From Tractidigestivibacter scatoligenes (GTDB taxonomy: Bacteria > Actinomycetota > Coriobacteriia > Coriobacteriales > Atopobiaceae), in the NCBI RefSeq assembly GCF_001494635.1, contig NZ_LOJF01000010.1, forward strand, positions 248,001 to 312,000: a DNA stretch of 64,000 nt, read 5' to 3'. The position numbers were made by a program, and so were the translations under genes. A model generated the notes under the pieces. That model saw only the letters and a list, made by a program, of their open reading frames with translations, was not told the DNA's origin and made no database searches. Numbering within the stretch: position 1 is the stretch's first letter; each line of letters opens with the position of its first letter. This document shows, piece by piece, positions 23,057-60,886 of the stretch.

Positions 23057-26000
23057 ATGAAACCCACGGAACCCACAACCATGCCTGTGCGACGGCTGTG
23101 CGACCGCATTCTGGCGGTGACGTTGTCGCTGGTCACGGCGGCGTCGATGGTGCCCACGCGAGCGCTTGCCGAGGCCGCGGCGGAGGCGTCGCCGGCAGCG
23201 ACGGCAGCAGCCGCTTCGGCCGAGGCAAGCGCCTCCGATGCCGCGTCGGTCAGCATCTACTCGACCTACCTCACCACCAGCGCAAGCTCCACGAGCGGTA
23301 CCTATGCCTTTGCCGCCTCGGACACGCTGTGGGCATGGGCGCGCGAGAAGGGCTCCGGCACCCCCATCGACCCCGCCACTCTCACCTACCAGTGGCAGGT
23401 CAGCAGCGATAACTCAACCTGGGAAGACATCCCGGGTGCCACCGCGCAGTCCCTCTCGCTTGCAAGCTACGCCGGTCGCTACGTGCGCTGTACGCTCGCA
23501 ACCGCCGACGTCAGCTCCTCGCGCACGACGCGCAGCCGCAACAAGGTGGCTGCTGCCGGTTCGGTCAACCTCGTGAACGTGTCGCTGAGCAACGCCGGCA
23601 AGCTTGCCCCCGGCAACACCATCACCGCTACAGCAAAGGACGCAAGCGGTGCCGACGCCACCTCCAACGCCAGCGTGACCTGGTCGTGGTACGCCAGCGA
23701 CTCGGCGTATGGCACGGGCGAGAAGATCGCAGGCGCCACAACCTCAACGCTTACCGTGACCTCTGACCTTCTCGGCAAGTACGTCTACGCAAGTGCGGAC
23801 GGCGGCTACGGTGCAACCAAGAGCTTGGCAGCGGGCCCCGTGCAAGAGGCCGGCACCGTCATGCTGTACAAGGTGACGGTCGACGCGTCCGGCTCCGCGA
23901 AGGTTGGCCAGACCCTTACCGCCACGGCCTATACCAGCTCCTACACCCAAGCGTCCTCCACGGACGTCGTTCTCTACCAGTGGCAGTGGGCCGCAAGCAA
24001 GACGACAGATGACTCCGCGTTCACCGACATTTCGGGCGCCACCTCTGCCACCTTTACCGTTCCCGAGCAGACCTCTGACGGCACCTCGCTTCTGGGCACG
24101 TACCTGCGCGTCAAGGCAACAAGCGGCAACTCGGTGGTCTCGACCAGCGCGCCTTCCTACTACGGAACCACCGCGACTGACCCGGTGGGACCCGTTGCGC
24201 TTGCGGGCGCCTACGACGTCTCGAGCGTGAAGCTCTCGTCCTCGGCCACAAACGCGCAGGTAGGGGCAACGCTTACGGCGCAGCCTCAGTACGAGAAGAC
24301 CAGCAGCTGGGGTTCGTACGAGACGGACCTGCCCTCGGACGCCAAGCTCACGTGCACCTGGTACGCGGCCGATGACGCGGCGGGCACCAACGCGCGCGAG
24401 CTCACGCCCGAAGACGGCGCCACCGGCGTCACGCTCAAGCTCTCCTCGCCCCTTGAGGGCAAGTACGTGTGGGCAAGCTGCAGTGCGCTCATGGCGTCTG
24501 CCGAGAGCGAGAAGAGCCAGGTCAAGGCTGCAGGTGCGTACGACCTCCACCACATTGTGCTGTCACCCTCGTCGAGTGCGCTTGTCACCGGCGACACTGT
24601 GAAGGCAGTGGTCTACGCCTCGCAGCTTTCTGGCAGCAACGTGGACGTGACCGGCAATGACGGCGTAAGCCTGCAGTGGTACGTCGCCGACACGCCGTCA
24701 GGTGAGTGGCAGCCGCTTGACGGCTGCACGTCCGCAAGCCTGCAGGTTCCGGAAAGTGCAGCGGGAAAGTACCTCAAGGTTGTGGCAACGAGCGGCACGG
24801 CCACTGTTGAAAGTACCTTTGACCAGGCCGTTGTTGGGGCCAACACGCTCGCGGGTGCCGCCGCGCGCCTCAAGAACGAGAACTGGCGCCCCTCTCTCAC
24901 CTATGGCACCGACACCAACGTGAACGACGTGCTTCTCGCCAAGCTGGCAGACGAGGGCGTGGACACTACGGGGCTCGCCGTGCGCGTGAGCAACGTGTCC
25001 TTCTCGGACGCCGACGCCAACGCTACCGTGGGAATCTCCACCGCAGACGCGGACAACGGTGCCATCACGTACTTCTCGTGCGACACCGATAAGGTCTCTA
25101 GCTGGAACATTTCCTCGCTTCAGACGGTGAGCTCGATTACGTTTACGCTCACCCGCGGAGACGAGACCGTAACCTACACCCCCAACCGCACCTTCCAGGT
25201 GCCTTGGGACGAGAACGCCGCGCGCGCCGTGCTCCAGAAGAAGGCCGATGCCATTACGCTTGGCTTTGCTCAGGGCGACTCCGCGGACTCCGTGACGCAG
25301 GCCTTCACGCTGCCCGCAAGCCTGGGCGGTGCCAGTGCAACGTGGACCGCAAGCGACAGCTCCGTGAGAGTATCCGGAGAGAGCTGGGACAGCACGCTCA
25401 CGGCAACGCCCACGCGCGGCTCTTCTGACACGCCAGTCACCCTTACGGCAACCGTGTCCTTCACGGGCTACGGTATGCCCGAGGTCTCGGTGACCAAAGA
25501 CTTCCCGATTACCGTCAAGGCAGACCCAGAGGCGGTGGCTGCAGCTCAGACCGAGCTTGTGGCTAAGGTCGAGAGCAGCTTCGCCTACGACAAGGTGACC
25601 GCTTTCTCCACCGGTGACGTCATCGACCCCACCGCGGTGACTGGCGATCTGCAGCTTCCCACCACGCGCACGCTTGGCGTGGACGGCAAGTACTACGCCG
25701 TTGCGTATAGCAGCAACGATTCTCTCGTCAGCTTCAATGGGTACCACGCAACGGTTGTGCGCCCGCTTGGCACCGCGCGCACCGTTACCATTACCTGCAC
25801 GGTTACCGACAAGTCAAACCCCGAGATAACCTCATCGAAGTCGCTAGAGTTCACGCTCTCTCCCGTGAGCGAGCAGGAGATTGACGCGGCGGTTTCGCTT
25901 ATGGAGAAGGCCAAGGCGGGGTATGCCCTGGCGCTCCTTGACGGACAAGACGCCAGCAACGTGACAGGTAACCTGCGAAGTTTCCTGGGCGCCTACGAGG

Positions 26001-28783
26001 ACGCATCGGGGAACCTCGCCTGGGCGCGCGACCGCGCCACGCAGTCCGCGCACCCCGGCATTGTGCCGGTTGACCTGCCCGGATACAGCGACATGGGCGG
26101 CATGACCTGGCGCACCTTCAAGTCCAGCCGTCCGGACGTAATCTCCAACGAGCTTCTCGCCTATACCCAGCCCACCGACAACACGCGGGTTACCGTTACC
26201 TCGCGCCTTGCTGACGAGCGCTTCCAGGCCTACTACGAGTTCTACAAGGATGACCCCACGGTAAGCGACCAGCTCAAGGCCAAGCTGGCAAGCCTTGTAG
26301 ACCAGGACGTCTCGGCCACTATTACGGTTACGGGCACCTCGGGCAAGGACGCGCCGGAGCAGGTTACCGCTAGCTGCTCGGTTATTGGCTCCAATGCTGC
26401 TGGCGCCAACGTGAGCTGGGCGCCGGAGACCTCGCTTTCCGTCGAGCCGGGAACCACCGCGGCAGGCCTCACCAAGAAGATCCTTGATGCCAACGGCATC
26501 ACTTACGACAATGGCCTCTACACCTTTACCAAGGACGGCAACTCGCTGGGCTATGACGCCGCAACCGGCAAGTGTTGGCAGCTCTTCATCAACGGCGAGT
26601 CTGCCACGGTGATGGCGTCGAACTACGTCCTCAAAGAGGGCGACCAGGTTGTTTGGTACTACTCCGCCTGGGGAGACTCGCTTCCTGGCCAGGTTACTGG
26701 TTCGGTGAAGGTGATTGGCAAGGACGCCTCGGGTCTGGATCAGGTGTGGGCCGATACCACGTCGCTCACGCTTGTCGAGGGTTCGACGGCGGCGGATCTC
26801 TCGGAGGCGGCGTTTTCTGCGTGCGGCCTCACGCGTGCCTCGTCTACCAGCAGCTGGGGTTACTACCTGAGCACCATCACTTCGCCCGTGGACGGACGTG
26901 TGTTGGGCTGGGATGCCTCGACGGGCGCGTACTGGCACCTGTTTGTAAACGGTAAGGCGTCGCAGGTTGGCGCAAGCAGCGTGAACATTGCCAACGGCGA
27001 CGAGGTCGTCTGGTACTACTGCACGGATTCTGACAGCCTTCCCAAGAGCGATGCGCTGGTAGTGGACCCATCGGCAACGCGCCCCACAAGCCTGAGCGCC
27101 GCTTGGCCTGGCTACAAGGGCACGGACGAGACGGGCGTAGTGCGCGGGCTCGCCACACCAGTGCCCGGCTCAAGCACCTATGCTAGGCTTGACTGGGCGC
27201 GGTCACGCACTACGACCAGCATGTTTGTCAACGCGAGCGACGCGATTGTCGTTAACGGCGACGTCTACGATGCCGCGCAGACGCAGCTCTATCGCCGTGA
27301 CGCGTCCACGGGTGTGGTTCTTGACGAGGCGCGCCTGGCTGCAAGCGTGGACTCCACTGCGCGCCTGCAGTACGCCGACGGTCTCATACTTGTGCCGCTG
27401 CACGGAGGCCGTATCCAGGCGCTCACGGCAGACACGCTGACCACGGTTTGGGTCTCGGCCGCGCTGCCTGCCTCTACCAGTGCGAGTGGCAAGGCCGTTG
27501 ACCAGCAGCTCCTCTCGTCCGTCACCGTGCGTGACGGCAAGGCGTACTTCTCGACCGTGGCACCTGACGGCAGCGATTCCTGCGGAGGCTACGTGGCCTG
27601 CGTGAGCTTGGCTGACGGCAGCCTTGTGTGGTCGCACGAGGGAACGGACGCAGGCTACTACTGGACGGGCGCCGTGCCCACTTCTGCCGGCGTGCTTACC
27701 GCCAACGACGAGGGGCGCGTCTCGCTGTTCGATACCGCTACGGGGGAGGAGCTTTCCTCGGTCGAGCTGGGGACGCGTTGCCGCGCACAGCTGGCAGTGA
27801 GCGGAAATACGGTCTACGCGGTCACGACCGACGGCACGCTGCACGAGCTCTTCCTGGGTTCTGACGGCTCGCTGACGGCAGGCCGCAGCGTGAGGTTCGG
27901 CTCGTACTCCACCTCGTCGCCTGTCATCTGCGACGGGCGAATCTACGTGGGCGGTTCCTCCTCCGCAGACGTGACGCGCGGCGCGCTCTTCGTGATTGAC
28001 CTTGCCTCCATGAGCGTGGTGCACGAGGTACTGGTGCCTGCGACCGCTGTCGAGGGCCAGGTGGGGACCGGTGACGTTAAGAGCGCACCTCTGGTGAGCG
28101 TTGCCCTCGATGGCAACACGTACGTGTACTTCACAAGCAACGGCAAACCTGGCGGCGTGTACGCCTACCGGCTTGGGGACGCCGAGGCCACCACGCTCTA
28201 CCAGCCCGCGAGCGACCTCTGGCAGTACTGCATGAGCTCCATCGCCTGCGACGCAAGCGGCAACCTCTACTATTTCAACGACTCCGGCACCCTCTTCAAG
28301 CTGGACGCGGGCGCAGCCACGGCCGCGCCGGGCGAAAAGGGCCAGGGCGGCGAGAACAACGCTGGCTCTGCTGGCGGCAGGGGCAACGCTGGTACCAACG
28401 GTAACGCAGGTGGTAACACTGCGGGCAGCGCCTTTGGCAACGCCACGTCGACCTCATCCGCAGCGAAGCCGTCAAAGCCTCACGTAACCGTCTCTGGCGG
28501 CAATGCGTCGACTGGCTCCGCGACAGCCGACGCCCTCGCGTCAGAGAACAGCTCGCTTCTCGGCAGCTACTCCTCGGAGGACGTGACCGCCGTCACCTCC
28601 ACGGGGGCCAAGGAACCCGCTGAAACCGGCGAGACTTCTGCAAGCGAGACTTCAGCGAACCAGTCGGGCCTTCCCATCTGGCCCATCATTGGCACCTGCG
28701 TTGGTGCGGCGCTGCTCATCCTGCTGCTTGCCACGCGTCGTCGCCGCGGCGATGACGGAACCGCCGAGGGGAGGCGCGGCTAG
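23057..28783 (+). CDS. Large surface protein with Ig-like repeats, two DUF4430 domains and a PQQ-type propeller
   Basis: The 1908-residue protein has a signal peptide (about 1-36, ending TRALAEA) and a C-terminal membrane anchor (IWPIIGTCVGAALLILLLATRRRR, about 1870-1893) with no LPXTG motif. Residues about 75-600 contain repeated Ig-like modules with the YQWQ/WYAS pattern. Two DUF4430 domains, the fold of the transcobalamin C-terminal domain, are at about 1114-1205 and 1221-1326 (KCWQLFINGES, EGDQVVWYYSAW). A PQQ-type beta-propeller follows (about 1375-1750), then a Gly/Asn/Ser linker. It is the first gene of an ECF locus and likely binds the vitamin or its carrier at the cell surface. GGGAGGCGGGG precedes ATG 23057. 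Confidence 0.8.
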   Translation: MKPTEPTTMPVRRLCDRILAVTLSLVTAASMVPTRALAEAAAEASPAATAAAASAEASASDAASVSIYSTYLTTSASSTSGTYAFAASDTLWAWAREKGSGTPIDPATLTYQWQVSSDNSTWEDIPGATAQSLSLASYAGRYVRCTLATADVSSSRTTRSRNKVAAAGSVNLVNVSLSNAGKLAPGNTITATAKDASGADATSNASVTWSWYASDSAYGTGEKIAGATTSTLTVTSDLLGKYVYASADGGYGATKSLAAGPVQEAGTVMLYKVTVDASGSAKVGQTLTATAYTSSYTQASSTDVVLYQWQWAASKTTDDSAFTDISGATSATFTVPEQTSDGTSLLGTYLRVKATSGNSVVSTSAPSYYGTTATDPVGPVALAGAYDVSSVKLSSSATNAQVGATLTAQPQYEKTSSWGSYETDLPSDAKLTCTWYAADDAAGTNARELTPEDGATGVTLKLSSPLEGKYVWASCSALMASAESEKSQVKAAGAYDLHHIVLSPSSSALVTGDTVKAVVYASQLSGSNVDVTGNDGVSLQWYVADTPSGEWQPLDGCTSASLQVPESAAGKYLKVVATSGTATVESTFDQAVVGANTLAGAAARLKNENWRPSLTYGTDTNVNDVLLAKLADEGVDTTGLAVRVSNVSFSDADANATVGISTADADNGAITYFSCDTDKVSSWNISSLQTVSSITFTLTRGDETVTYTPNRTFQVPWDENAARAVLQKKADAITLGFAQGDSADSVTQAFTLPASLGGASATWTASDSSVRVSGESWDSTLTATPTRGSSDTPVTLTATVSFTGYGMPEVSVTKDFPITVKADPEAVAAAQTELVAKVESSFAYDKVTAFSTGDVIDPTAVTGDLQLPTTRTLGVDGKYYAVAYSSNDSLVSFNGYHATVVRPLGTARTVTITCTVTDKSNPEITSSKSLEFTLSPVSEQEIDAAVSLMEKAKAGYALALLDGQDASNVTGNLRSFLGAYEDASGNLAWARDRATQSAHPGIVPVDLPGYSDMGGMTWRTFKSSRPDVISNELLAYTQPTDNTRVTVTSRLADERFQAYYEFYKDDPTVSDQLKAKLASLVDQDVSATITVTGTSGKDAPEQVTASCSVIGSNAAGANVSWAPETSLSVEPGTTAAGLTKKILDANGITYDNGLYTFTKDGNSLGYDAATGKCWQLFINGESATVMASNYVLKEGDQVVWYYSAWGDSLPGQVTGSVKVIGKDASGLDQVWADTTSLTLVEGSTAADLSEAAFSACGLTRASSTSSWGYYLSTITSPVDGRVLGWDASTGAYWHLFVNGKASQVGASSVNIANGDEVVWYYCTDSDSLPKSDALVVDPSATRPTSLSAAWPGYKGTDETGVVRGLATPVPGSSTYARLDWARSRTTTSMFVNASDAIVVNGDVYDAAQTQLYRRDASTGVVLDEARLAASVDSTARLQYADGLILVPLHGGRIQALTADTLTTVWVSAALPASTSASGKAVDQQLLSSVTVRDGKAYFSTVAPDGSDSCGGYVACVSLADGSLVWSHEGTDAGYYWTGAVPTSAGVLTANDEGRVSLFDTATGEELSSVELGTRCRAQLAVSGNTVYAVTTDGTLHELFLGSDGSLTAGRSVRFGSYSTSSPVICDGRIYVGGSSSADVTRGALFVIDLASMSVVHEVLVPATAVEGQVGTGDVKSAPLVSVALDGNTYVYFTSNGKPGGVYAYRLGDAEATTLYQPASDLWQYCMSSIACDASGNLYYFNDSGTLFKLDAGAATAAPGEKGQGGENNAGSAGGRGNAGTNGNAGGNTAGSAFGNATSTSSAAKPSKPHVTVSGGNASTGSATADALASENSSLLGSYSSEDVTAVTSTGAKEPAETGETSASETSANQSGLPIWPIIGTCVGAALLILLLATRRRRGDDGTAEGRRG

Positions 28784-36670: not shown

Positions 36671-37312
36671 GTGCACGATATTCACTGCCACATACTTCCC
36701 GGTGTAGACGACGGCTCCTCCTCTATGGAGGAGTCGCTTGCTATGCTTAAGGCCGCGCGTGCCGCCGGCGTGACGGAGATAACCTGCACGCCTCACTGCC
36801 GCGACCCGTACTTTGACTACGATGCCATGTGGCAGGCCTTCTACCAGCTGCAAGACGCTGCGGGAGACTTCCCCCTCCACATGGGCTTCGAGGTTAACCA
36901 CCACAAGCTCATGGACCTGGGGATGGGTTGGGCGCGGGTGCTTGGCTGCTACGGCACGGCGGACTTCTTGTTGGAGCTCTCGGTAAACGCATCGCCTTCG
37001 CGCTTTGCGGACTACGAGAGGACCATCTTTAAGCTCCAGGGGATGGGCTACAACGTAATCATTGCGCACCCAGAGCGCTACGTGGCGGTGCAGAAGGACG
37101 TTGGCCTGGCTCGGGAGCTGGTGGACATGGGCTGCAGGCTCCAGGCCTCCGCGGACTTCATTGCAGGGGGGCGTCTGGGTGCCGAGAAGCGCCCGGCCAT
37201 TGAGCTCATGAAGCAGGGCCTCTACACGTTTATTGCGAGTGACGCGCACTGCGTGAAGCACTACCAGTACCTGGCCAAGGCGCTGAGAAAGTACGGGAGC
37301 TGCCTTGCGTAG
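36671..37312 (+). CDS. Tyrosine phosphatase CpsB/YwqE-type (PHP fold)
   Basis: The 213-residue metal-dependent phosphatase has the PHP motifs HDIHCHILPGVDDG at the N-terminus, TPHCRDP, the Glu in GFEVNHH, IIAHPERY and the final ASDAHC. It dephosphorylates the BY-kinase and so switches polymer assembly. GTG 36671 starts the protein; a usable but weak ribosome site (AAGGGTAG) lies upstream. Together with the two preceding genes it completes the CpsBCD regulatory triad. Confidence 0.92.
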   Translation: MHDIHCHILPGVDDGSSSMEESLAMLKAARAAGVTEITCTPHCRDPYFDYDAMWQAFYQLQDAAGDFPLHMGFEVNHHKLMDLGMGWARVLGCYGTADFLLELSVNASPSRFADYERTIFKLQGMGYNVIIAHPERYVAVQKDVGLARELVDMGCRLQASADFIAGGRLGAEKRPAIELMKQGLYTFIASDAHCVKHYQYLAKALRKYGSCLA

Positions 37313-49521: not shown

Positions 49522-52500
49522 ATGAAGCACAGATGCTTAATGCGGTGTGGTATGGCCGTATTGCTTGCGGCATGTCTCACTGCAGCCCCGGGATTGTGTC
49601 CGACACCTGTACTAGCTGAGGACGCCAATACTGCTAGCGCCTCGCAAACGCAGGATATTTCAAAAGGTTCAGCTATTGACGGAACGGATTACTCGGTTAC
49701 TTCGGTAAAGACATATGCCATTGCGCCAGATATAACCGAGCGGACGATCGTTACCAATAATGCTGCAGGCACCTCGCAGACTGTTGCCAATGTGATGGAG
49801 ATCAACACCGCGAATGGCAATGCGAAGCTTGCCGCAAGCTACGGCAATGTCGATCCGGCTAAAGATGGCTGGAAGATGTCGACCCTTACGGATCAGACGC
49901 ATCTGTACGAGAAGACTTACAACGAGAATGTTGTAGGCGGCATCAATGCATCGCTCTTCAACATCACGACGGGTGAGCCCATGGGCTATCTCCGCATGGG
50001 GGGTACGACATACAAGGATGATGCAAAGATTCCGTTCGTTGCCGTATTCAGCGATGGCTCTGTTGGAATTTATCCAGCAGGAACGACACTCGACCAGGCA
50101 GCCGCTGAGCAGAGCAAGAAAGTCGGCTCTACGGTCACAGTCACGGATGCGGCGGGTGGCTGGTGCATCCTCGTGGATGGCAAGACTGTTGCAACGCAGG
50201 GTTCCAATGGTGGATATTACTCTCGCAGCGCTATTGGTCTGAAGGCAGATGGCACGGTCGTTATGCTTCAGGCTGACGGCACCATGCCTCCGCGTTCCCT
50301 CGGGTACACTCTTGAGGAAATGGGCCGCATGATGCAGAGCCTGGGGTGCACCTATGCCCTGGAGCTCGATGAAGGCGGATCATCCGAGTTCGTGTCCCAG
50401 CGCGAAGGCGAGTCTGACATTGCAATGCGCAATACGCCCGCAGGCGGTGGCGAGCGAGTAATCTCTACCTCCCTTCTCGCGGTTTCAACGGCAGCGCCGT
50501 CTGGCGAATTTGACCATGCGGGCATTACCCCCAACGACAATATTTTCACACCCAATACGACAGTTGCTCTTACTGCAACAGGCATGGACTACTCTGGTGC
50601 AGCAGCCAAGAGCATACCCTCAGGTGTGTCATGGTCTCTGACGGATGACAGTAAGAGTCTTGGCGAACTAAAGGCCGGGGATGTTTCTGGAGACACCGCT
50701 TCTGCAACGTTCGTCTCTAACGGAACCTGTGGAACGGCGACCGTACAGCTTATGTATCAGGGCAAGGTTGTCGGGAAGACGAGCATCCGTATTCAGAATC
50801 CAGATACCCTCTCGTTCACTTCGGACGAAGTCAACCTTAACTATGAGGAGAAGAGCGACCTGGGTCTTACCGCACTCTATCAGCAAGAGCCGGTCATCCT
50901 CAAAGATGGAGATATCACTTGGGCCATCGATGACACGAAGGCGGGCTCTTTTGAGGGTAACACCTTTGTGACCACGAGTGATGTTACAGTGTCGACGAGC
51001 CCCAAAGTCACCGCCAAGTATGGAAGCCTCACGGCTACCACGACCGTGAATGTAGGCAAGCAGCCGACCATCGTTCTCGACGGTGGCGACGATGACGGCC
51101 ATGATTACAGCACGATTGGCACAACGGTACACAGCTTTGATGGAATGAGTGCCAGTGCAGTGGCTACCTATAGCTATCCTAGCCGTGGCGGTATAGTTAC
51201 CGGCTCGGTCGTGTCGGATACCGATTCGGACTTTGCAGACATCATTCGCTTCGGGCATAAGGCAGTGAAGCTCGACTTCGATTGGACCGGGATTACAGGT
51301 ACAGATGGTGCCTGTCTTGGATTAGGTAGTAATATTGATGTTCCAGGAACCCCGACGGCGCTCGGTGCTTGGGTGTATATACCTGAAGGTGCCCCGGTTC
51401 CTTGGCTGCGTGCACAGATTGCAACGTCCAAAGATGGCTCGACTTATACGAATGCTTATATCAACTTTACTGATCAAAACTCGAACGGTAAAGATGCTAA
51501 AGCGGGATGGAATTATTTCGAAGCTGACATGACGCAGTATGCTGGCCAGAAGATTCGCGTCAACAGTGGCATGCTGTTCCGCGCTATGGTCACCCAGAGC
51601 GGCATCGGCTGGTATACGACCGATGGCACCAAGCTCTCCAAAGATCAGCTTAAGGGCTACATCTTGGTTGACAACATCTCCTTTGTCTATGGTGCCAATA
51701 ATCAGGACGTGACGGCACCTACGGTGAAGTCTCTCCAGATTATCAATGATGACGGTACGAAGTCTGATTTGGCGGATGGGGCCGAGCTCAAGACGAATGC
51801 CCCTGCGTTCTATGCCACTTACGACGACAATGAGGATACGGACAAATTCGCAACTGGCGTTGAGTCTGCATACTTCTATCTTGATGGCACCTACTATGGA
51901 GCTGGCGACAAGGACAATCTGGGTTCGACGCTGAAGGGCGTCCAGATTCCCAATGGCGAGCACTCTCTTACGTTCTATCTCAAGGATGGATTTGGCAATA
52001 TCACTCGAGAAACCCGTCATTTCACTGTCAATGGTTCCAATGCCGTTACGATAGACGGCAAGGAGACACAGCTCACTGGCGTTAGCTTTGCCACCGACGG
52101 CGAGCCGATTGTCGGCAAGGACTGGAAGCTGCATCTCACGACCAATAATATTTCCGACATTGTGGAGATGACAGCTACCGTGCAGCTGAGCCGTGGCTAC
52201 AAGCCGACGGTCCAATTCTCCAGCGGAGTTACCGGAACTTATGAATACGCCGACGATACGGGTAAGCTCACTGTCAGCGTCACAAAGGTGGAGAATGCAT
52301 CGGGCAGCGAGATTGCTACGATTACCGTTCCTGTCTCCGAGACCTCTGCTGAGGGCTCGGAAATCAGCGTCCAGGTAGTTTCGGGTACCTACAAGGTCAA
52401 CTCCGTGACGTCTGATAGCAATTCCTACTGGATGGGCTTCAGCACGCCGTCTGAGACCCACAAGATTACTGCTGCCTACACGCTTTCTACTGAAGCCATG

Positions 52501-55500
52501 GTTGTCGGCCTTCCGACTACGATCACGGTGAAGAATTCCGATGGCAATGCTGCTGCCGATGTCGATGTGTATGCCGACGACTCAACTGACCTGGGCAAGA
52601 CGGACTCCGATGGCCGCTTGACTACTTCGGTGCTCACAAAGGCCGAAGGCACGCATACGCTGTATGCAAAGGATTCTAAGGGCAACAGGTCTTACGCGTA
52701 TTCCTGCACTGCATACAAGTCGACGGAAGACGACACCGGTAAGGAAGGCTTGCCTCAGTACGTTCACTTCAATGTATCCAAGGATTCGACCACGCAGAAG
52801 AACATTGCATGGTATAGCAGCCCGTCCGCTTCTGCCGCTACGGCGCAGGTGAAGGTCGCTGCATCTAAGGACATGTCTGACGCAACGGTTGTGGATGGAA
52901 CTTCACAGCTTGGCTCCTATACGCAGAGCGGTGTTGTGAGCCGAATCAACTATGCAAACCTTACTGGCCTTGAAGCAGGCAAGACCTATTACTTCCAGGT
53001 TGGCGATGGCCAGAAATGGTCTGATGTCAGTTCGTTCACCACTGCTGTGCACAAGAACAGCGAGAAGATTTTCCTGACTGCAGATATTCAGGAAGACGAC
53101 GCGCTTACCGGCTTCGGTCGCATCGCGTCTCACATCAAAGACGGCGGATATGATCTTGGAATCCAGCTGGGCGACGCTGTTGATAACGTTCGCTACTACA
53201 ACCAGTGGACCGATGCACTCAAGCTATTTACGCTTGATGGCATTGCCGACAAGGACATGCTGCATGTCGTAGGAAACCATGAGGCGGATGACGACGGCAA
53301 TGGCGCAGCTCTTGCAAAGGAGACCTTCAACCTTGCCGGCAATTGGTACTCTGTCGAATATGGCGATGTCTATATCGCCGTGCTCAACTATACGAGCAGC
53401 CAGGACCAGCTTGAACAGTTCAAGGATTGGCTGGTGCAGGACGCATCTGCATCCAACTGCAACTGGAAGATCCTGGTTACGCATATTCCGGTCTATTACA
53501 CCAACCCGACTGGCGGCGGCGAGGAGTATCTTGCCGAGCTGCCTGATGCTGTCGAAAAGGCAGGCATCGACTTCTACTTTGCTGGCAACGACCACAGCTA
53601 TGCGCGTACGGAGCCTCTGGCACAGGGCAAGGTGGATAAGGAAAATGGCGTTGTCTACTACATCTGCGGTTCTACGGGCGGTAAGTCCTACAGCGTCGTG
53701 AACAATCCTGATTTCCACTTCGATATTGCGACGCTTGACTTCAACAGTATCTATGTCTCCTTCGAGACCAATGGAGACAAGGCTACGGTTACGGCATACA
53801 ACGTCGATACCAACGGCAACCAGAGTGTTCTGGATACCTATACCAAGTCAAAGACTTGTGCCAACGATGAGCACAACTATGTCTATGACAAGGACTCTAA
53901 GAAGCTGGTATGCACCAAGTGCGGCTACGAAACTGATCCTGTCGATGAAAAGTACAACGGTTTTGTCCAAGAGAAGCAGTCTGGCAAGACGATGTGCTTT
54001 GTGTCGGGTGAGTTGGTAAAGGGTTCTGTACGGTTTGGCAACAAGTTCTATTTCGCCGACGACGATGGCTATGCCTATGACGGTGACTATACGATTGACG
54101 GTACTGTCTGTACGTTCAAGGGCGGTTATTTCGAGTCCAGTCCTGATGGCGATGTCCTGGCAGCAGGACGTGCGGGAGATAAGGTTGATTTCATTCTTCG
54201 CAATGACGGCGTGATGAAACTTGTCGGCACTGGCGATATGTATACTTACTATCGTGAACCGGTAGTACCGTGGTCTACTTTTGAAAGCTCCATCAAGGAG
54301 CTCGACGTCGCGGCCGGCGTGACGAGCCTGTCCGACTGGGCGGTCTACCACTGCTCCAACCTCCAGAAGGTCGTCTTCGCCGAGGGCAGCAAGCTCACCT
54401 CCGTGGGCATGAACGCCTTCGACGGCTGCACCAGCCTCGCCTCGGTGGAGCTCCCCTCCGGCGTCACCAGCATCAGCTGGAATGCCTTCGCGCACTGCGG
54501 CTCGCTCACGGACCTCTATCTCCCAGACGGCGTCGCCTGGATCGGCGGCGGCTCCGGCTACGACTTCACCAAGGAGTCCACAGTGACCCTCTCCGTCGCC
54601 CGCGGCACGTATGCCGAGCAGTGGGCGAAGGACCACAACGTCAGGTACACCTCGCGAGAGCCCAAGGACATCGCATCCGGCACCTGCGGCGACGGCCTGA
54701 CGTGGAAGCTCTCCGCCGACGGCGTCCTCTCGATTGACGGAGACGGCGCGATGGCGAACTATGCCGGCGCGGGCGACGTGCCCTGGTGGCAGTACCGGAG
54801 CTCCATCAAGGAGCTCGACGTCGCGGCCGGCGTGACGAGCCTGTCCGACTGGGCGGTCTACCACTGCTCCAACCTCCAGAAGGTCGTCTTCGCCGAGGGC
54901 AGCAAGCTCACCTCCGTGGGCATGAACGCCTTCGACGGCTGCACCAGCCTCGCCTCGGTGGAGCTCCCCTCCGGCGTCACCAGCATCAGCTGGAATGCCT
55001 TCGCGCACTGCGGCTCGCTCACGGACCTCTATCTCCCAGACGGCGTCGCCTGGATCGGCGGCGGCTCCGGCTACGACTTCACCAAGGAGTCCACAGTGAC
55101 CCTCTCCGTCGCCCGCGGCACGTATGCCGAGCAGTGGGCGAAGGACCACAACGTCAGGTACACCTCGCGAGAGCCGCAGGCGATTGCGTCACTCGAGACT
55201 ACGTCGAGCGCTCAAAGCACGGAGGAAAAGCTGAATGCTTCTGAGGACGTAGCGGCAGAGACCAGCAGCACGGATACGGTGGCAACGGATTCTGCTTCAT
55301 CTGATGCAGGCACTGTTGAGGATGAGGGAAATGCATCTGCGGAGGAAGGTAACGCTGAGCAAGAATCTGCTGACTTGCGGGTAGATGCTAAACAGGGTAG
55401 CTGTGGAGAAGCGCTCACCTGGTCTCTCGATGACGATGGAACCTTGACAATCGATGGCGATGGCAAGATGACTGATTATTCCGAAAAGTCATCTGCTCCT

Positions 55501-55920
55501 TGGGACGAGCTGGCCCAGGACATTGTTTCCATTCACGTCGGCGCGAAGGTCGAGACGATTGGCGCATATGCATTCAGTGGCCTTGAGAAGGTCGAAAGCG
55601 TGACTTTCGATGACGAGAGTGAGCTTACCGAAATCAGGGACTTTGCATTCAGTGGATGCAAAGCGCTCAAGACTGTTGAACTTCCCAAGAAGCTCGAGAA
55701 GATTGGCCAGGGTGCTTTTGAAAAGTGCGAGAAGCTTGAGCTCGTTAAGCTTCAAGAGTCTGTTACTTCTATCGGAGAAGTACTTGTAGAGCAGGATACC
55801 GATCAGGCAGCAAACGAGCAGCAGCCTGTAGATGCCTTTGCAGACAGTCTATTGGTGAAGATTGAAGCTCCAGAAGACAGCTACGCGCTTCAATATGCGG
55901 AGGAGCACAAGCTCGTCTAG
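49522..55920 (+). CDS. Giant secreted protein: phosphodiester glycosidase, metallophosphatase and BspA-type leucine-rich repeats
   Basis: The 2132-residue protein has a signal peptide (about 1-32, ending PVLAED). Residues about 130-325 match the NAGPA phosphodiester glycosidase domain (GGINASLFNITTGEPMGYL, SRSAIGLKADGTVVML, LELDEGGSSEFV). Ig-like and carbohydrate-binding-like modules follow. A calcineurin-type metallophosphatase spans about 1176-1420 (TADIQEDD, QLGDAVD, GNHEADD, VTHIPVY, GNDHSYA) after a purple acid phosphatase N-like module. BspA-type repeats fill about 1588-1884 and 1990-2085. No sortase motif or C-terminal anchor was seen. The gene follows the capsule locus and may trim or turn over phosphodiester-linked surface glycans. 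A 377-bp exact duplication lies inside. Confidence 0.8.
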   Translation: MKHRCLMRCGMAVLLAACLTAAPGLCPTPVLAEDANTASASQTQDISKGSAIDGTDYSVTSVKTYAIAPDITERTIVTNNAAGTSQTVANVMEINTANGNAKLAASYGNVDPAKDGWKMSTLTDQTHLYEKTYNENVVGGINASLFNITTGEPMGYLRMGGTTYKDDAKIPFVAVFSDGSVGIYPAGTTLDQAAAEQSKKVGSTVTVTDAAGGWCILVDGKTVATQGSNGGYYSRSAIGLKADGTVVMLQADGTMPPRSLGYTLEEMGRMMQSLGCTYALELDEGGSSEFVSQREGESDIAMRNTPAGGGERVISTSLLAVSTAAPSGEFDHAGITPNDNIFTPNTTVALTATGMDYSGAAAKSIPSGVSWSLTDDSKSLGELKAGDVSGDTASATFVSNGTCGTATVQLMYQGKVVGKTSIRIQNPDTLSFTSDEVNLNYEEKSDLGLTALYQQEPVILKDGDITWAIDDTKAGSFEGNTFVTTSDVTVSTSPKVTAKYGSLTATTTVNVGKQPTIVLDGGDDDGHDYSTIGTTVHSFDGMSASAVATYSYPSRGGIVTGSVVSDTDSDFADIIRFGHKAVKLDFDWTGITGTDGACLGLGSNIDVPGTPTALGAWVYIPEGAPVPWLRAQIATSKDGSTYTNAYINFTDQNSNGKDAKAGWNYFEADMTQYAGQKIRVNSGMLFRAMVTQSGIGWYTTDGTKLSKDQLKGYILVDNISFVYGANNQDVTAPTVKSLQIINDDGTKSDLADGAELKTNAPAFYATYDDNEDTDKFATGVESAYFYLDGTYYGAGDKDNLGSTLKGVQIPNGEHSLTFYLKDGFGNITRETRHFTVNGSNAVTIDGKETQLTGVSFATDGEPIVGKDWKLHLTTNNISDIVEMTATVQLSRGYKPTVQFSSGVTGTYEYADDTGKLTVSVTKVENASGSEIATITVPVSETSAEGSEISVQVVSGTYKVNSVTSDSNSYWMGFSTPSETHKITAAYTLSTEAMVVGLPTTITVKNSDGNAAADVDVYADDSTDLGKTDSDGRLTTSVLTKAEGTHTLYAKDSKGNRSYAYSCTAYKSTEDDTGKEGLPQYVHFNVSKDSTTQKNIAWYSSPSASAATAQVKVAASKDMSDATVVDGTSQLGSYTQSGVVSRINYANLTGLEAGKTYYFQVGDGQKWSDVSSFTTAVHKNSEKIFLTADIQEDDALTGFGRIASHIKDGGYDLGIQLGDAVDNVRYYNQWTDALKLFTLDGIADKDMLHVVGNHEADDDGNGAALAKETFNLAGNWYSVEYGDVYIAVLNYTSSQDQLEQFKDWLVQDASASNCNWKILVTHIPVYYTNPTGGGEEYLAELPDAVEKAGIDFYFAGNDHSYARTEPLAQGKVDKENGVVYYICGSTGGKSYSVVNNPDFHFDIATLDFNSIYVSFETNGDKATVTAYNVDTNGNQSVLDTYTKSKTCANDEHNYVYDKDSKKLVCTKCGYETDPVDEKYNGFVQEKQSGKTMCFVSGELVKGSVRFGNKFYFADDDGYAYDGDYTIDGTVCTFKGGYFESSPDGDVLAAGRAGDKVDFILRNDGVMKLVGTGDMYTYYREPVVPWSTFESSIKELDVAAGVTSLSDWAVYHCSNLQKVVFAEGSKLTSVGMNAFDGCTSLASVELPSGVTSISWNAFAHCGSLTDLYLPDGVAWIGGGSGYDFTKESTVTLSVARGTYAEQWAKDHNVRYTSREPKDIASGTCGDGLTWKLSADGVLSIDGDGAMANYAGAGDVPWWQYRSSIKELDVAAGVTSLSDWAVYHCSNLQKVVFAEGSKLTSVGMNAFDGCTSLASVELPSGVTSISWNAFAHCGSLTDLYLPDGVAWIGGGSGYDFTKESTVTLSVARGTYAEQWAKDHNVRYTSREPQAIASLETTSSAQSTEEKLNASEDVAAETSSTDTVATDSASSDAGTVEDEGNASAEEGNAEQESADLRVDAKQGSCGEALTWSLDDDGTLTIDGDGKMTDYSEKSSAPWDELAQDIVSIHVGAKVETIGAYAFSGLEKVESVTFDDESELTEIRDFAFSGCKALKTVELPKKLEKIGQGAFEKCEKLELVKLQESVTSIGEVLVEQDTDQAANEQQPVDAFADSLLVKIEAPEDSYALQYAEEHKLV
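54286..54662 (+). repeat. 377-bp exact repeat inside the giant protein gene, copy 1
   Basis: Identical to 54799-55175 at every base and in the same reading frame (offset 513). It encodes BspA-type leucine-rich repeats. Codons are almost all G- or C-ending, unlike the rest of the gene. Confidence 0.95.
54799..55175 (+). repeat. 377-bp exact repeat inside the giant protein gene, copy 2
   Basis: Second copy of 54286-54662. The 136 bases between copies are also G+C rich, while the sequence after about 55,190 returns to the lower G+C of the host gene. Confidence 0.95.
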
Positions 55921-56449: not shown

Positions 56450-57310
56450 ATGAAAGATGGGGAAAGCAAAAATAAAGCACCTCTCGATATGGCGTTTTCG
56501 GAGTATCGCAATCAGCTGTCTGATGCAATCCAGCGGTCACCCGATACGCAAGGCGAGCATCTGGATGGCTATTACAAAATATTGGAATACCTTGCCTCAA
56601 AGGGATCAATGCACCATCATTACCGGCATTACGTCTCGCGCAGTCGAGCAGAAAGTATTCTTGAACAGTCTGCCATCTATTTGACGGATGGTTCTAGCTG
56701 GAATGATATATTTGATTATCAGCATTTCAATCCAGCCTTTTCATCCTATAGGCATTTCGGCAGTTGTTTTTCTGCTTCTACTGATGAGAGCATTGCCATG
56801 TGGATGCTCTACGGTGGTCCCCATAGAGATGGCGTAATGTTTGACTTCACTCGTGAAATCCTGAATAAGGCAATAAACGAGACGCCCCATTATGAGGGCG
56901 GATACTTCGACGAAGGGCACTTCCAGAAGATCCGTGATATCCCACGCAACCTACTTGAACTGAGATTGGTTGATATTCTCTACTTTAGAGAACTAAATAA
57001 TGGAGATGATGCCAATATCTCAGTTCGTAGAATAGGCGATAGCAAACGGGTGGACATTACTCGCCAAGAGCTCGAAAGCATCCCTCAGTTAACCAAACAC
57101 GTCGCTTGGTCTTATGAAAAAGAAGTAAGATTGGTGGCTAGAATCAAGCGAAGCGATTATATTTATAATTCAAAAATAACTTGTATCAAAATACCACTGC
57201 AGCTTTCCCAATCTTTTGTAGAGACTCGCGTATTTGATTCCCCACTTTATTCTGGCCGGAGTAGCTATTCGGACAGTTGCTTACATGGGACAGTCAAATG
57301 GAATAATTAA
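56450..57310 (+). CDS. DUF2971-family protein
   Basis: The 286-residue protein carries the DUF2971 pattern: HHYRHYVSRSRAESILEQSAIYLTD, SCFSASTDESIAMWMLYGGPHRDGVMFDF and VAWSYEKEVRLVARI. The biochemical function of this domain is not known to me; it is frequent in accessory DNA. ATG 56450 has AGGGAGG 12 bases upstream. Lower G+C than the flanking core genes supports acquisition. It is the first gene of a small accessory island. Confidence 0.75.
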   Translation: MKDGESKNKAPLDMAFSEYRNQLSDAIQRSPDTQGEHLDGYYKILEYLASKGSMHHHYRHYVSRSRAESILEQSAIYLTDGSSWNDIFDYQHFNPAFSSYRHFGSCFSASTDESIAMWMLYGGPHRDGVMFDFTREILNKAINETPHYEGGYFDEGHFQKIRDIPRNLLELRLVDILYFRELNNGDDANISVRRIGDSKRVDITRQELESIPQLTKHVAWSYEKEVRLVARIKRSDYIYNSKITCIKIPLQLSQSFVETRVFDSPLYSGRSSYSDSCLHGTVKWNN

Positions 57311-57410
57311 CAATAGTTATATTAATATACAATAGACCATAGTGACGGGAACAACAGCTGTCTAAGGAGCATGAGAAATCTATGCTCTTACGAGGTTGGT
57401 CTATTCTGTG

Positions 57411-57575
57411 ATGACTGGCAAGGAGAAGCCTACAAGAATAGATGACCAAGCTCTCGCGGAATTCACGCGGAGGGGGATAGACTTGGAACATCCTGAACGT
57501 CCCTATAAGGATGACGAGGAAATCCACGAGGCATTTGAGCGAATGGTCCGCAAGGCCACCTCGTTCCAGCGCTGA
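57411..57575 (+). CDS. Small hypothetical protein, 54 residues
   Basis: Not recognised. ATG 57411 opens a 54-codon frame: MTGKEKPTRIDDQALAEFTR and so on, ending MVRKATSFQR, highly charged and predicted helical (DDEEIHEAFERMV). The ribosome site is weak (GAGG about 15 bases upstream); a GTG directly before the ATG is an alternative start. Codon use is sensible and a protein of this charge pattern could be an antitoxin or a truncated gene end. Either reading is a guess. Confidence 0.4.
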   Translation: MTGKEKPTRIDDQALAEFTRRGIDLEHPERPYKDDEEIHEAFERMVRKATSFQR

Positions 57576-57874
57576 CGATAGTTGATGTTCCTCTTTCTCT
57601 CCGCGTGTATTCTTAAGATGCAAGTGCCGGTTTGACCACCGTGTAATGGACGGTAGTCGCGCCGATAATGTAGTGCCTGCGTCGCGGGATGAGGTTAAAA
57701 GTTCTCTCTGGTAGGAGTTTTCTCTCGCTGACTTTCTCGGCGAGCCAATCGTTGGTGCCGAGCGCACCCGCTGGGAATATTCTGTTCGACGCAGATTAAG
57801 CTCCCCACTACGTTCCGGAGTTTGGGCATTGCTAGTCGCTGGAACTAGCTCTTTGGCCTATTGTGTTATGAGAT
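57576..57874. other. Gap before the DUF4365 gene
   Basis: About 300 bases with no supported gene. A long frame on the minus strand across this gap overlaps the small + strand frame and lacks a ribosome site. Confidence 0.45.
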
Positions 57875-60800
57875 ATGTTAATAATCCCCGCGCTTAGAGC
57901 CATCAAACAGCTGGTGAAGCATATGGATATCAATATTTCTGACATGAATACGATGGGTTCTCCAAATACAAGAAATACGGGCAATCGGGGTGAGGAGGAA
58001 GTCAGGCACTTCTTCAGTAGGAATGGTATGAGCGTAATTGATTATCCTCAAAGCCAGGATGTTGGTACTGATTTAATTGTGGATGTGCAACTCGAGGATT
58101 CTAACACGGGTAACACTCTTGATTTGGGATATCCTGTGCGAGTGCAGGTAAAAACTGGCACCTCATACTTTTCCTCACCAGGGTGTTCCCTCGATAACAA
58201 CGGCAAAGAGGTAGATGGTTGGTGGTTCAGCTGTGATGGCAGACACCACAATTATTGGACAAGACACTTCGATAGTTTTCTTCTGATTCTGGTTAAGCTT
58301 AACGACGAATCGGATTATCACGAGGCACCAGAGATGTACTGGCAGTGGCTTGATGAGGAGGGCCGCTACTGTCCGACTCGGAAGCCTATAACTCCTGATG
58401 GTTTACAGAACGAATCATCACAAAACGACATGCACTATAAGATTTTCATTCCTAGCAGCCAAATTGTTGACGAAGGCCTGTGCGATATTCTCAAGGAAGC
58501 AGCATACAACCATTGGCTTAGCACGAGAGTGGCGTCTGCTGACATTTACAACTTTAATATTGAGGAAGTGCCTGCTTCTCAGCAAGCGCGTTACGCAATG
58601 CTATTGCCAGACCTTACGGCTCCACATGTAAATAAGGGCTATGACCATGCAATATCTTGGCCTGAAGCTCTTGCCCTTTGCGTTCTTCATCATCCGAGCA
58701 GATGGAGTAACGATTACTACAGCTTTGCAGACCAGTTCGAAGAAGTTCCTAATATCAAAGAGGCAAAATCTAGCAGTGATGCTGGTTGGCAATTTGCAGG
58801 CTGGTATTATGACTATCATTTTCTGAACGGCAATGAAAATCCGGATGGTTTTGAAGAACTATCAGGTCTTCCTGCAGAACTTCAAGCTGCGCGTGCTGTC
58901 ATTGTATCTGCCAGAGCTTATCACGAAAAACAATTCCACCTTGCTATCCAAGTCATTGATGCCGCAATTGACGGCATCAAGGCTAAAGGCATTGATGACA
59001 TCGACATGGCATGGCTGTTAATCCAGAAAGGCAATAGCTTATGTGAACTTGCCAAAATAGACGAAGCGACAAGTGCCTATGCTAAGAGCCAGCGACTTAC
59101 AAGAGCTAGCAAAACAAATGAAACTGATTTAACGGCAAAGCTGCTTCACAGTGTAGCTACAGTCGCTATCTATTACCTTCAAACGCCGCCTAGAAGAGAT
59201 GTAGGGGGTCTCATTTCCGCAAACGATAACGAACTTGCCAGGTTTTCACTGAGGAGAGAAGCCGCGAACTTCGATAAACTCATTGATGAGAGGTTTGATG
59301 CGTGGAGCCCTTCCGGTGACATTACCTTTGGGGCCTCAGGCACCCTATTGATTAATTGCCAGGTTAGTCTGGATGTCAGCCTTCTGTCAGGCAATGTGCC
59401 GTCGTACCGACAGTCTCTCTCACAGATGGCAATGATTGAACTGTCAGAACGGGGGGCTGAAGGAGATGCTGCTGTCGGATATCTCTCCGCACTGCTGCGG
59501 GCGGGCGACGCCAATCGACTCGGACAGGCACTCGAGAAAATAAAGCGCACTTATGACCCAAAGATAGTAACTGACTTTATAGAGAGACTGTCACCCGCCG
59601 ATGTCACGCCAGTGACCTCTGCTGCTTATTTTAAGGCCATTGTTATCTGCGGGGAGTTTCTGAGTAAGTCTCGTTCGGATGAATGGTTCGCTTTCCTTAT
59701 TGCCGCTCTTGAGGATCCAATAATTTTTGCAAAGCGATATACCCCTCCTGGCGTCTACCGTTTCTGGCCAACAGAAGCCATTAAGTGTATGTGTTCAATG
59801 CGCTACCAACTCAGCTCTAACGTGATGAATCGGATTGTTAACTCTATCATTTCGAGCAAAGTATCCCTCGAACCCGCCTCCAGCGAAATCCGTGGTCTGC
59901 TTCTTGCTCTCAATGATGATCCCGCTCGTACGAGAGAGCGCATAACAACTGCTGGTGAACCGATTCCCCAATGGCTAGAACCGATATTAAGCGAAGCTTT
60001 CACTGGTGTGACACAAGAAAAGCGTGAAGCAATTCATCGGGAGATTCTTAGCGGAAATCTGTCACATATAGAACAGATTGGATCTTTTGACAGTATTGAA
60101 CCCGATGAGATAGTTGCAATCATCAATAAAGGCCTTGCTATCCTGAAAGAAATTTGTGTTCAGGCTAATGACGGGGTGTATACAGGAAGATCAATCGATT
60201 ACGGCTATCTGACTACGTATCTCGTGACGCACTATCCTGAATACTCAAATTGCGATATTGATCGATGGTGGGACAGAATAATTGAGTTGCTTGAAAAACC
60301 ACTAATCAATAATCGCGAGAAAGTGTCTGCAGCGAAGGTGATAATTTCAAATATTATGCGTGTGCCAGTGGAACAGGCAAGGAAGATTGATGCGCGTGGA
60401 TCGATGATATTGAAGTCTGTTGATTGGGGGCTGCTTCCGTCCGATGGCGGAGATGAACGCATCGTGTTGCAAGCGATGCTGATAGCGGCATATGGTCGTG
60501 TAAGAGGGTTCGATGAAGCTATACGGATGGCGGCATGCGATTTGGAAGGCATTAATAGATACAATGTCTCTCTTCTGGAATACACGGCAAATCCTGGGCT
60601 TAGTTTACTTGCTGCTTGCTCTTCTGATGATTACGAAATCAGGTACAAAGCATTCGAAACTTTAGTGAGTGTTTGCTGCGAAGACGAGCGGAGGTTTAAG
60701 GAGTATTCAGACTTCTTTTCAAAAAGGTGTCTTAGCGGATGTAGCGACTATGCGAGGGGTTTAATTAATGCTCTCTACTGCCATCAAAACCATGATTCCG

Positions 60801-60886
60801 AGGCAAAGAAGCTTCTAGATAAACTCGCGAACAGTCACCCTTCAGCAATTGTGCGCCACCATGCGAATAACCTACTCTCAAGGTAA
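57875..60886 (+). CDS. Large protein with N-terminal DUF4365 (PD-(D/E)XK-like) domain and helical-repeat body
   Basis: The 1003-residue protein has an N-terminal DUF4365 domain (about 35-210). NRGEEEVRHFF, QDVGTDLIVDV (D62, D66) and VRVQVKTG (Q91, K93) match the nuclease-like active-site order. The rest is alpha-helical with TPR-like stretches (FHLAIQVIDAAIDGIKAKGIDDIDMAWLLIQKGNSLCELAKIDEATSAY) and HEAT-like repeats toward the C-terminus. ATG 57875 lacks a clear ribosome site; an ATG at 57923 (MDINISDM) may be the true start. G+C is well below the core genome. An antiviral or stress nuclease role is possible but unproved. Confidence 0.7.
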   Translation: MLIIPALRAIKQLVKHMDINISDMNTMGSPNTRNTGNRGEEEVRHFFSRNGMSVIDYPQSQDVGTDLIVDVQLEDSNTGNTLDLGYPVRVQVKTGTSYFSSPGCSLDNNGKEVDGWWFSCDGRHHNYWTRHFDSFLLILVKLNDESDYHEAPEMYWQWLDEEGRYCPTRKPITPDGLQNESSQNDMHYKIFIPSSQIVDEGLCDILKEAAYNHWLSTRVASADIYNFNIEEVPASQQARYAMLLPDLTAPHVNKGYDHAISWPEALALCVLHHPSRWSNDYYSFADQFEEVPNIKEAKSSSDAGWQFAGWYYDYHFLNGNENPDGFEELSGLPAELQAARAVIVSARAYHEKQFHLAIQVIDAAIDGIKAKGIDDIDMAWLLIQKGNSLCELAKIDEATSAYAKSQRLTRASKTNETDLTAKLLHSVATVAIYYLQTPPRRDVGGLISANDNELARFSLRREAANFDKLIDERFDAWSPSGDITFGASGTLLINCQVSLDVSLLSGNVPSYRQSLSQMAMIELSERGAEGDAAVGYLSALLRAGDANRLGQALEKIKRTYDPKIVTDFIERLSPADVTPVTSAAYFKAIVICGEFLSKSRSDEWFAFLIAALEDPIIFAKRYTPPGVYRFWPTEAIKCMCSMRYQLSSNVMNRIVNSIISSKVSLEPASSEIRGLLLALNDDPARTRERITTAGEPIPQWLEPILSEAFTGVTQEKREAIHREILSGNLSHIEQIGSFDSIEPDEIVAIINKGLAILKEICVQANDGVYTGRSIDYGYLTTYLVTHYPEYSNCDIDRWWDRIIELLEKPLINNREKVSAAKVIISNIMRVPVEQARKIDARGSMILKSVDWGLLPSDGGDERIVLQAMLIAAYGRVRGFDEAIRMAACDLEGINRYNVSLLEYTANPGLSLLAACSSDDYEIRYKAFETLVSVCCEDERRFKEYSDFFSKRCLSGCSDYARGLINALYCHQNHDSEAKKLLDKLANSHPSAIVRHHANNLLSR

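Follow-up and report, generated by a model that had tools for sequence, protein, structure and literature searches.

In the 64,000-nt stretch of Tractidigestivibacter scatoligenes DNA analysed here (the window), a giant gene contains a block of two BspA-type leucine-rich-repeat (LRR) modules in which a 377-bp sequence occurs twice and whose codons end in G or C far more often than those of the surrounding gene. We consider it likely that G+C-rich BspA modules were imported into this gene by recombination near module boundaries, giving an R-S-R array (repeat copy, spacer, repeat copy) whose copy number can change in frame. Module import and duplication would then be found together in one gene, with the joins visible almost to the base. 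Identical-DNA module repeats are a known bacterial route to longer and shorter surface proteins. As module repetition is already known in such proteins, the case is real but ordinary in kind.

The giant gene and its exact repeat

The gene lies at 49522-55920 on the forward strand and its open reading frame encodes 2132 aa. In Pfam the protein matches NAGPA (PF09992), the purple-acid-phosphatase N domain (PF16656), metallophosphoesterase (PF00149), LRR_5 (PF13306, at 180.5 bits against a gathering cut-off of 27.7) and LRR_8 (PF13855). The N-terminus has an export signal, as judged by eye, and the product is probably secreted. No wall-anchor domain was matched in Pfam or NCBIfam and no LPXTG motif was seen by eye; the C-terminus is a BspA module. 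A protein search of seven congeners found no match to the product in any of them, and LRR_5 is likewise matched in none of the seven. In the family LRR_5 is present in 70 of 140 genomes and, under a stricter limit, in 102 of 256 class genomes (completeness at least 95%). The 1588 aa before the block are matched in nine of the 139 other family genomes, with identities of 27-34%; the matches span about 430-450 aa in two of them and about 75-170 aa in seven, and no orthologue of the gene was found in the family.

Direct sequence comparison shows that the repeat copies R1 (54286-54662) and R2 (54799-55175), both on the forward strand, are 377 bp each and 100% identical. The original prediction of a perfect in-frame duplication within this open reading frame is thus borne out, and its distance of 513 bp holds as a start-to-start offset, the actual gap being 136 bp. 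Since 513 is 3 x 171, the duplication is in frame, with an offset of 171 codons. The gap is a single-copy spacer, S (54663-54798, forward strand), that codes for the N-terminal cap (N-cap) of the second module. The absence of any difference over 377 bp suggests either that the copies are young or that conversion has kept them alike. Each copy opens with a hairpin-like AGCTCC, five bases, GGAGCT (54286-54302 in R1), and carries the palindrome CTCGCGAG (8 bp) close to its 3' end (about 54651-54658 in R1); both may be chance.

The composition of the block was described by GC3, the share of codons with G or C at the third position. GC3 is 0.95 across 54286-55173, as opposed to 0.60 upstream and 0.53 downstream in the same gene, and the predicted contrast between a repeat with nearly all codons ending in G or C and a host gene richer in A/T-ending codons is therefore real. 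With the unit counted once, 161 of its 171 codons end in G or C (binomial P ~8e-26 for an expected share of 0.59). When change points were fitted to third codon positions without the repeat coordinates as input, the block was placed from 54286 to 55167 (best) or 55182 (next best), with a log-likelihood ratio of 92; GC3 is 0.95 within these limits and 0.585 beyond them. Among 30 permutations, for which block lengths were scanned more coarsely, no ratio exceeded 9.2. The 2-log-unit support runs from 54286 to 54298 for the block start and from 55155 to 55188 for its end. Within the resolution of the fit, the outer ends of the repeats are the composition breaks. The spacer shares the high GC3 (0.91, computed on 54661-54798), so it is the whole R-S-R stretch that deviates and not the repeat copies alone.

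Modules, joins and predicted fold

Three BspA-type modules can be delimited on the forward strand. Module 1 (54157-54660) is chimeric: an A/T-ending N-cap, which is the host gene's own version, is joined at 54286 to a G/C-rich LRR part. Module 2 (54661-55173) is a complete G/C-rich module whose 171 aa equal the repeat period. The two have 83% amino acid identity over about 168 aa, about 125 aa being identical. The C-terminal module (55384-55917), which matches LRR_5, has the composition of the host gene, with a GC3 of 0.40-0.62 per 40-codon segment and 0.77 in the last 13 codons, and it has 37% amino acid identity to module 2 over 55384-55776. Had all BspA repeats of the gene shared one composition, the case for an insertion would have been weakened; within this gene the C-terminal module shows that they do not.

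The DNA 5' of R1 and the DNA 5' of R2 are homologous, with 56 of 118 columns identical and none of 300 base shuffles as high. The upstream join lies between the N-cap and the repeats, in homologous register. On the 3' side, the sequences that follow R1 and R2 are not significantly similar (39 of 300 shuffles as high over 30 bp, and 56 of 300 over 110 bp).

An AlphaFold2 model of both modules (337 aa, with seven sequences in the alignment) has a mean pLDDT of 87.6 and a pTM of 0.70. Each of the two units in the model begins with a set of N-terminal strands, continues with LRR strands and closes with a strand-helix-strand element. Residue 42, which marks the 5' join, follows the strands of the N-cap and precedes the first strand of the LRR part; just before it, at residues 31-40, pLDDT drops to 64. 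Given this placing of the join, the chimeric module would be expected to fold, and the 171-aa period is predicted to be one whole BspA module, that is, a capped leucine-rich-repeat unit. The best Foldseek matches to the model are the BspA-type structures 4gt6, 4h09 and 4fs7, and the same three again rank first in a sequence search of the PDB. The whole-chain TM of about 0.3 in the Foldseek matches is put down to the model consisting of two short units while the whole chain was the query. Duplication had been expected to vary the number of leucine-rich repeats. Our results agree as to the amount of leucine-rich repeat but not as to steps of single repeats, since the predicted step is a whole capped module.

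The scenario that we favour, import of G+C-rich modules, starts with a gene in an A+T-rich island that already had BspA-type modules of its own composition. From a G/C-rich BspA array, an R-S-R stretch (an N-cap between two LRR parts) would have arrived by recombination with the module sequence, with one crossover at the N-cap/LRR boundary (5') and the other near the module end (3'), and the incoming stretch would have replaced or extended the gene's own module. As homology there is not significant, we only infer the 3' crossover. The identical copies may have been preset in the donor array or may have been made after arrival. Once in place, the 377-bp identity would allow recombination or slippage to remove or add whole 171-aa modules, following the pattern R(SR)n; as the offset is divisible by three, the frame would survive each such change. 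The length of the protein would then differ between cells or strains, with 1961, 2132 and 2303 aa expected for one, two and three modules.

The number of copies is the part of this structure that the assembly is most apt to have altered. It is possible, though we think the opposite appreciably more probable, that n in R(SR)n differs from 1 in the true array and that the loop count was guessed by the assembler. An exact repeat of 377 bp is longer than usual short-read k-mers, so that the count could indeed be guessed, the genome is a 16-contig draft, which makes copy number the least certain item, and mis-assembly of such repeats is known, as PMC13339910 and PMC6868369 indicate. Against this, the frame is intact throughout and similar arrays are present in G048, a family genome that is a single contig. 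The spacer is also unlike the host N-cap, from which at least one S and one R must exist. Such an artefact would alter n and not the import, and the two explanations are compatible. The length given for this gene in the draft genome is not to be trusted without long reads.

Which part is foreign, and the search for a donor

The A+T content of the gene is part of a wider pattern. In 2-kb steps, the G+C of the window is 0.605-0.70 in the first 38 kb and 0.45-0.58 thereafter; it falls from about 0.64 at approximately 37511 and stays low to the window end. From base composition and Pfam matches, 37511-64000 (the start being approximate), which contains the giant gene, is probably a variable island. 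Ten neighbouring genes were profiled with Pfam. Those at about 38.4-49.1 kb, a polysaccharide synthesis locus, have matches to glycosyltransferases, to a family of polysaccharide export proteins and to a polysaccharide pyruvyl transferase, among others; the CpsB/CapC gene at 36671 still has a native-like GC3 of 0.81. Downstream of the surface gene, two A+T-rich genes (56450-60886) have DUF2971 and DUF4365 as their sole Pfam matches, the latter in the 1003-aa protein of the second gene. Outside the island, a second giant gene (23057-28783, 1908 aa) has a possible export signal by eye and a native-like GC3 of 0.79.

In 18 sampled stretches the T. scatoligenes genome has a mean G+C of 0.625 (range 0.58-0.68), and the median GC3 of 92 native genes is 0.81; these genes were filtered from long ORFs by a base-composition rule on two codon positions only, and false ORFs may remain among them. 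The repeat unit has a codon-usage score per codon of -0.73 under native usage, -1.20 under island usage and -1.01 under the usage of its own gene. The corresponding scores for the gene upstream of the block are -1.18, -1.11 and -1.03, the last flattered because the own-gene model was trained on the gene's flanks. With a GC3 of 0.94 the unit stands close to the upper limit of native values, a level that 5 of 199 native windows reach. The codon usage of the block thus resembles that of the rest of the chromosome, and it is the surrounding gene that looks foreign. The original prediction was of an insertion, foreign to its host, from a high-G+C BspA-like gene, followed by duplication. Import remains our preferred reading and the exact in-frame duplication stands, while the foreign composition has to be given up, the unit scoring better under native usage than under that of its own gene. 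Whether a composition is 'foreign' has to be assessed relative to the genome, not to neighbouring codons.

We did not find the donor. For its DNA, the eight genomes of the genus (its own included) yielded, besides the block itself, one 47-bp stretch at 81% identity in its own genome and a like stretch in one other, G001; in the 140 family genomes, with no more than a few candidates scored in each, the matches were short, about 30-140 bp at 69-93% identity, the strongest being 72% over 115 bp in G048. At the protein level the genus genomes gave the self-match alone, and the best identity in 396 class genomes (E <= 1e-20) was 49%. In contigs of named genomes there were 14 loci, none of them close (13 at 30-42% and one 17-residue stretch at 65%), and this search, designed for close relatives, is the one that covered other phyla. 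Viral contigs gave no match, and 23 phage and 10 plasmid records were each below 60% identity. A search of the genome for the donor had been proposed with the original prediction and came back empty: LRR_5 is matched in the giant gene alone, which makes a donor elsewhere in this genome unlikely. No RNA families or tRNAs were found in the window, and there is accordingly no sign there of a tRNA-borne insertion. We also weighed a donor whose codon usage would be that of G048. The unit is equalled or exceeded in likeness to G048 by 54 of 195 native windows, and in likeness to native usage by 6 of 88 G048 windows, which leans towards its own genome over a G048-type donor without deciding between them. 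In the collection of papers searched by word combinations there was none joining BspA-like proteins with Coriobacteri, and none combining leucine-rich repeat, BspA, horizontal gene transfer and domain shuffling.

The native-like codon usage would also be expected if the G/C-rich block were an older native remnant around which the A+T-rich gene was built by recombination, and composition mosaics of both directions do occur in the genes of relatives (see below). However, the gene on either side of the block is of one and the same kind in GC3 (0.60 and 0.53), and with LRR_5 in none of the seven congeners no native remnant is visible; we regard this as unlikely. Less probable still is a chimeric contig, in which R-S-R from another organism in the sample was misjoined into this gene. 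The sharp composition break at both block ends, the estimated contamination of 1.29% and the lack of a second LRR_5 gene in the genome would fit, but the frame is kept, as is the module register at the 5' join, which is unlikely for a random misjoin, and the codon usage of the block matches that of the T. scatoligenes genome.

Module arrays in relatives and in known surface proteins

Relatives were sampled at 56 loci (L084-L099 and L130-L169), in which 37 genes were counted, each an ORF where a pattern of our own finds three or more LRR motifs; loci lacking such an ORF were dropped. Exact repeats of at least 100 bp occur in two of the 37, both in G048, which may be an underestimate, since exact arrays may drop out of fragmented drafts such as many of the other genomes. 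The two G048 arrays (L084 and L141) have periods of 501 and 495 bp, exact and in frame, and when shifted against themselves they match exactly over 1520 and 1764 bp. They resemble the array described here in being exact in-frame repeats of BspA-type modules with high GC3, but they are longer and the remainder of each gene is G/C-rich too: GC3 is 1.00 in the exactly repeated modules and 0.93 and 0.85 elsewhere in the two genes, the G048 genome median being 0.79 (39 filtered genes).

A GC3 block with a log-likelihood ratio of at least 45 is present in six of the 37 genes. In L141 and L139 the block is the LRR modules, while in L084 it spans the LRR array and several hundred codons beyond; in L133, L136 and L088 we read the G/C-rich part as a different, C-terminal kind of domain. 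L139 (4193-12628) is a reverse mosaic with sharp edges, in which the LRR block has a GC3 of 0.47 and the rest of the gene 0.87. Mosaics in the BspA-type genes of relatives thus run in both directions. We speculate, with considerable doubt, that cassettes of G/C-rich BspA modules move between the giant surface genes of this lineage. Homologous recombination at the boundaries of modules would bring them into genes of A+T-rich islands, where they would later expand or contract. If so, the repertoire and the length of surface proteins would change together.

In a wider survey of 473 ORFs of at least 350 aa from 102 sources, six, including this gene, contain internal repeats that are exact over at least 100 bp, and the spacing of the longest repeat pair in each is a multiple of three. 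Repeat GC3 is clearly higher than that of the rest of the ORF in three of the six (this gene included), lower in one (0.26 against 0.43) and about equal in two (0.49/0.45 and 0.58/0.57). The composition of amplified modules is often unlike that of their own gene, yet not always richer in G+C. GC-biased gene conversion, by which recombination among identical copies would have raised GC3 with no import, could account for the repeated modules of G048 but hardly for this distribution, which does not support it as a general rule, nor for the high GC3 of the single-copy spacer, and we give it very little weight. The ORF with the lower repeat GC3 is the LRR_5 gene L177 (3893-8860), which has exact 891-bp repeats 1050 bp apart and reaches a contig end. 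Another, in L178 (2-16204, relative G289), has at least 5400 aa (5922 aa) and exact repeats of up to 648 bp with a spacing of 636 bp.

The closest parallel may be with the Periscope Proteins, surface proteins in which the number of long, nearly identical tandem domains varies; as outlined in PMC8201768, their authors screened for tandem repeats of more than 50 residues and at least 80% identity with the program T-REKS. Modules 1 and 2 are adjacent and reach that identity. The giant gene resembles the Periscope genes described there in coding for a large protein in which long, near-identical domains stand side by side, and in a DNA identity that should permit gain and loss of whole domains. N-terminal to its repeats lie the NAGPA and metallophosphoesterase domains; in Periscope Proteins the N-terminal functional domain binds a host ligand. 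The repeats of Periscope Proteins form an elongated stalk; for the repeats here two capped units are predicted. Unlike the proteins of that outline, however, it has two modules only, the first of them chimeric, and neither Pfam nor NCBIfam matches a domain for C-terminal wall attachment. It may work like a Periscope gene but, having no recognised anchor and a variation that we only infer, it is not assigned to that class.

With BspA-type LRR proteins the giant protein shares its LRR_5 match, its PDB relatives and, in the model and the Foldseek matches, LRR strands as in the solved structures. It differs from other BspA-type proteins in the fusion to NAGPA and metallophosphoesterase domains and in the composition mosaic within the gene. 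A further parallel is cmbA of Limosilactobacillus reuteri, the longest gene there, in which, according to the abstract of PMC13339910, an intragenic macrosatellite of identical tandem repeats of ~290 bp is hard to sequence and assemble and has 8 and 11 copies in two genomes. The gene described here has 1.7 periods, and it has a composition break, of which the cmbA abstract makes no mention.
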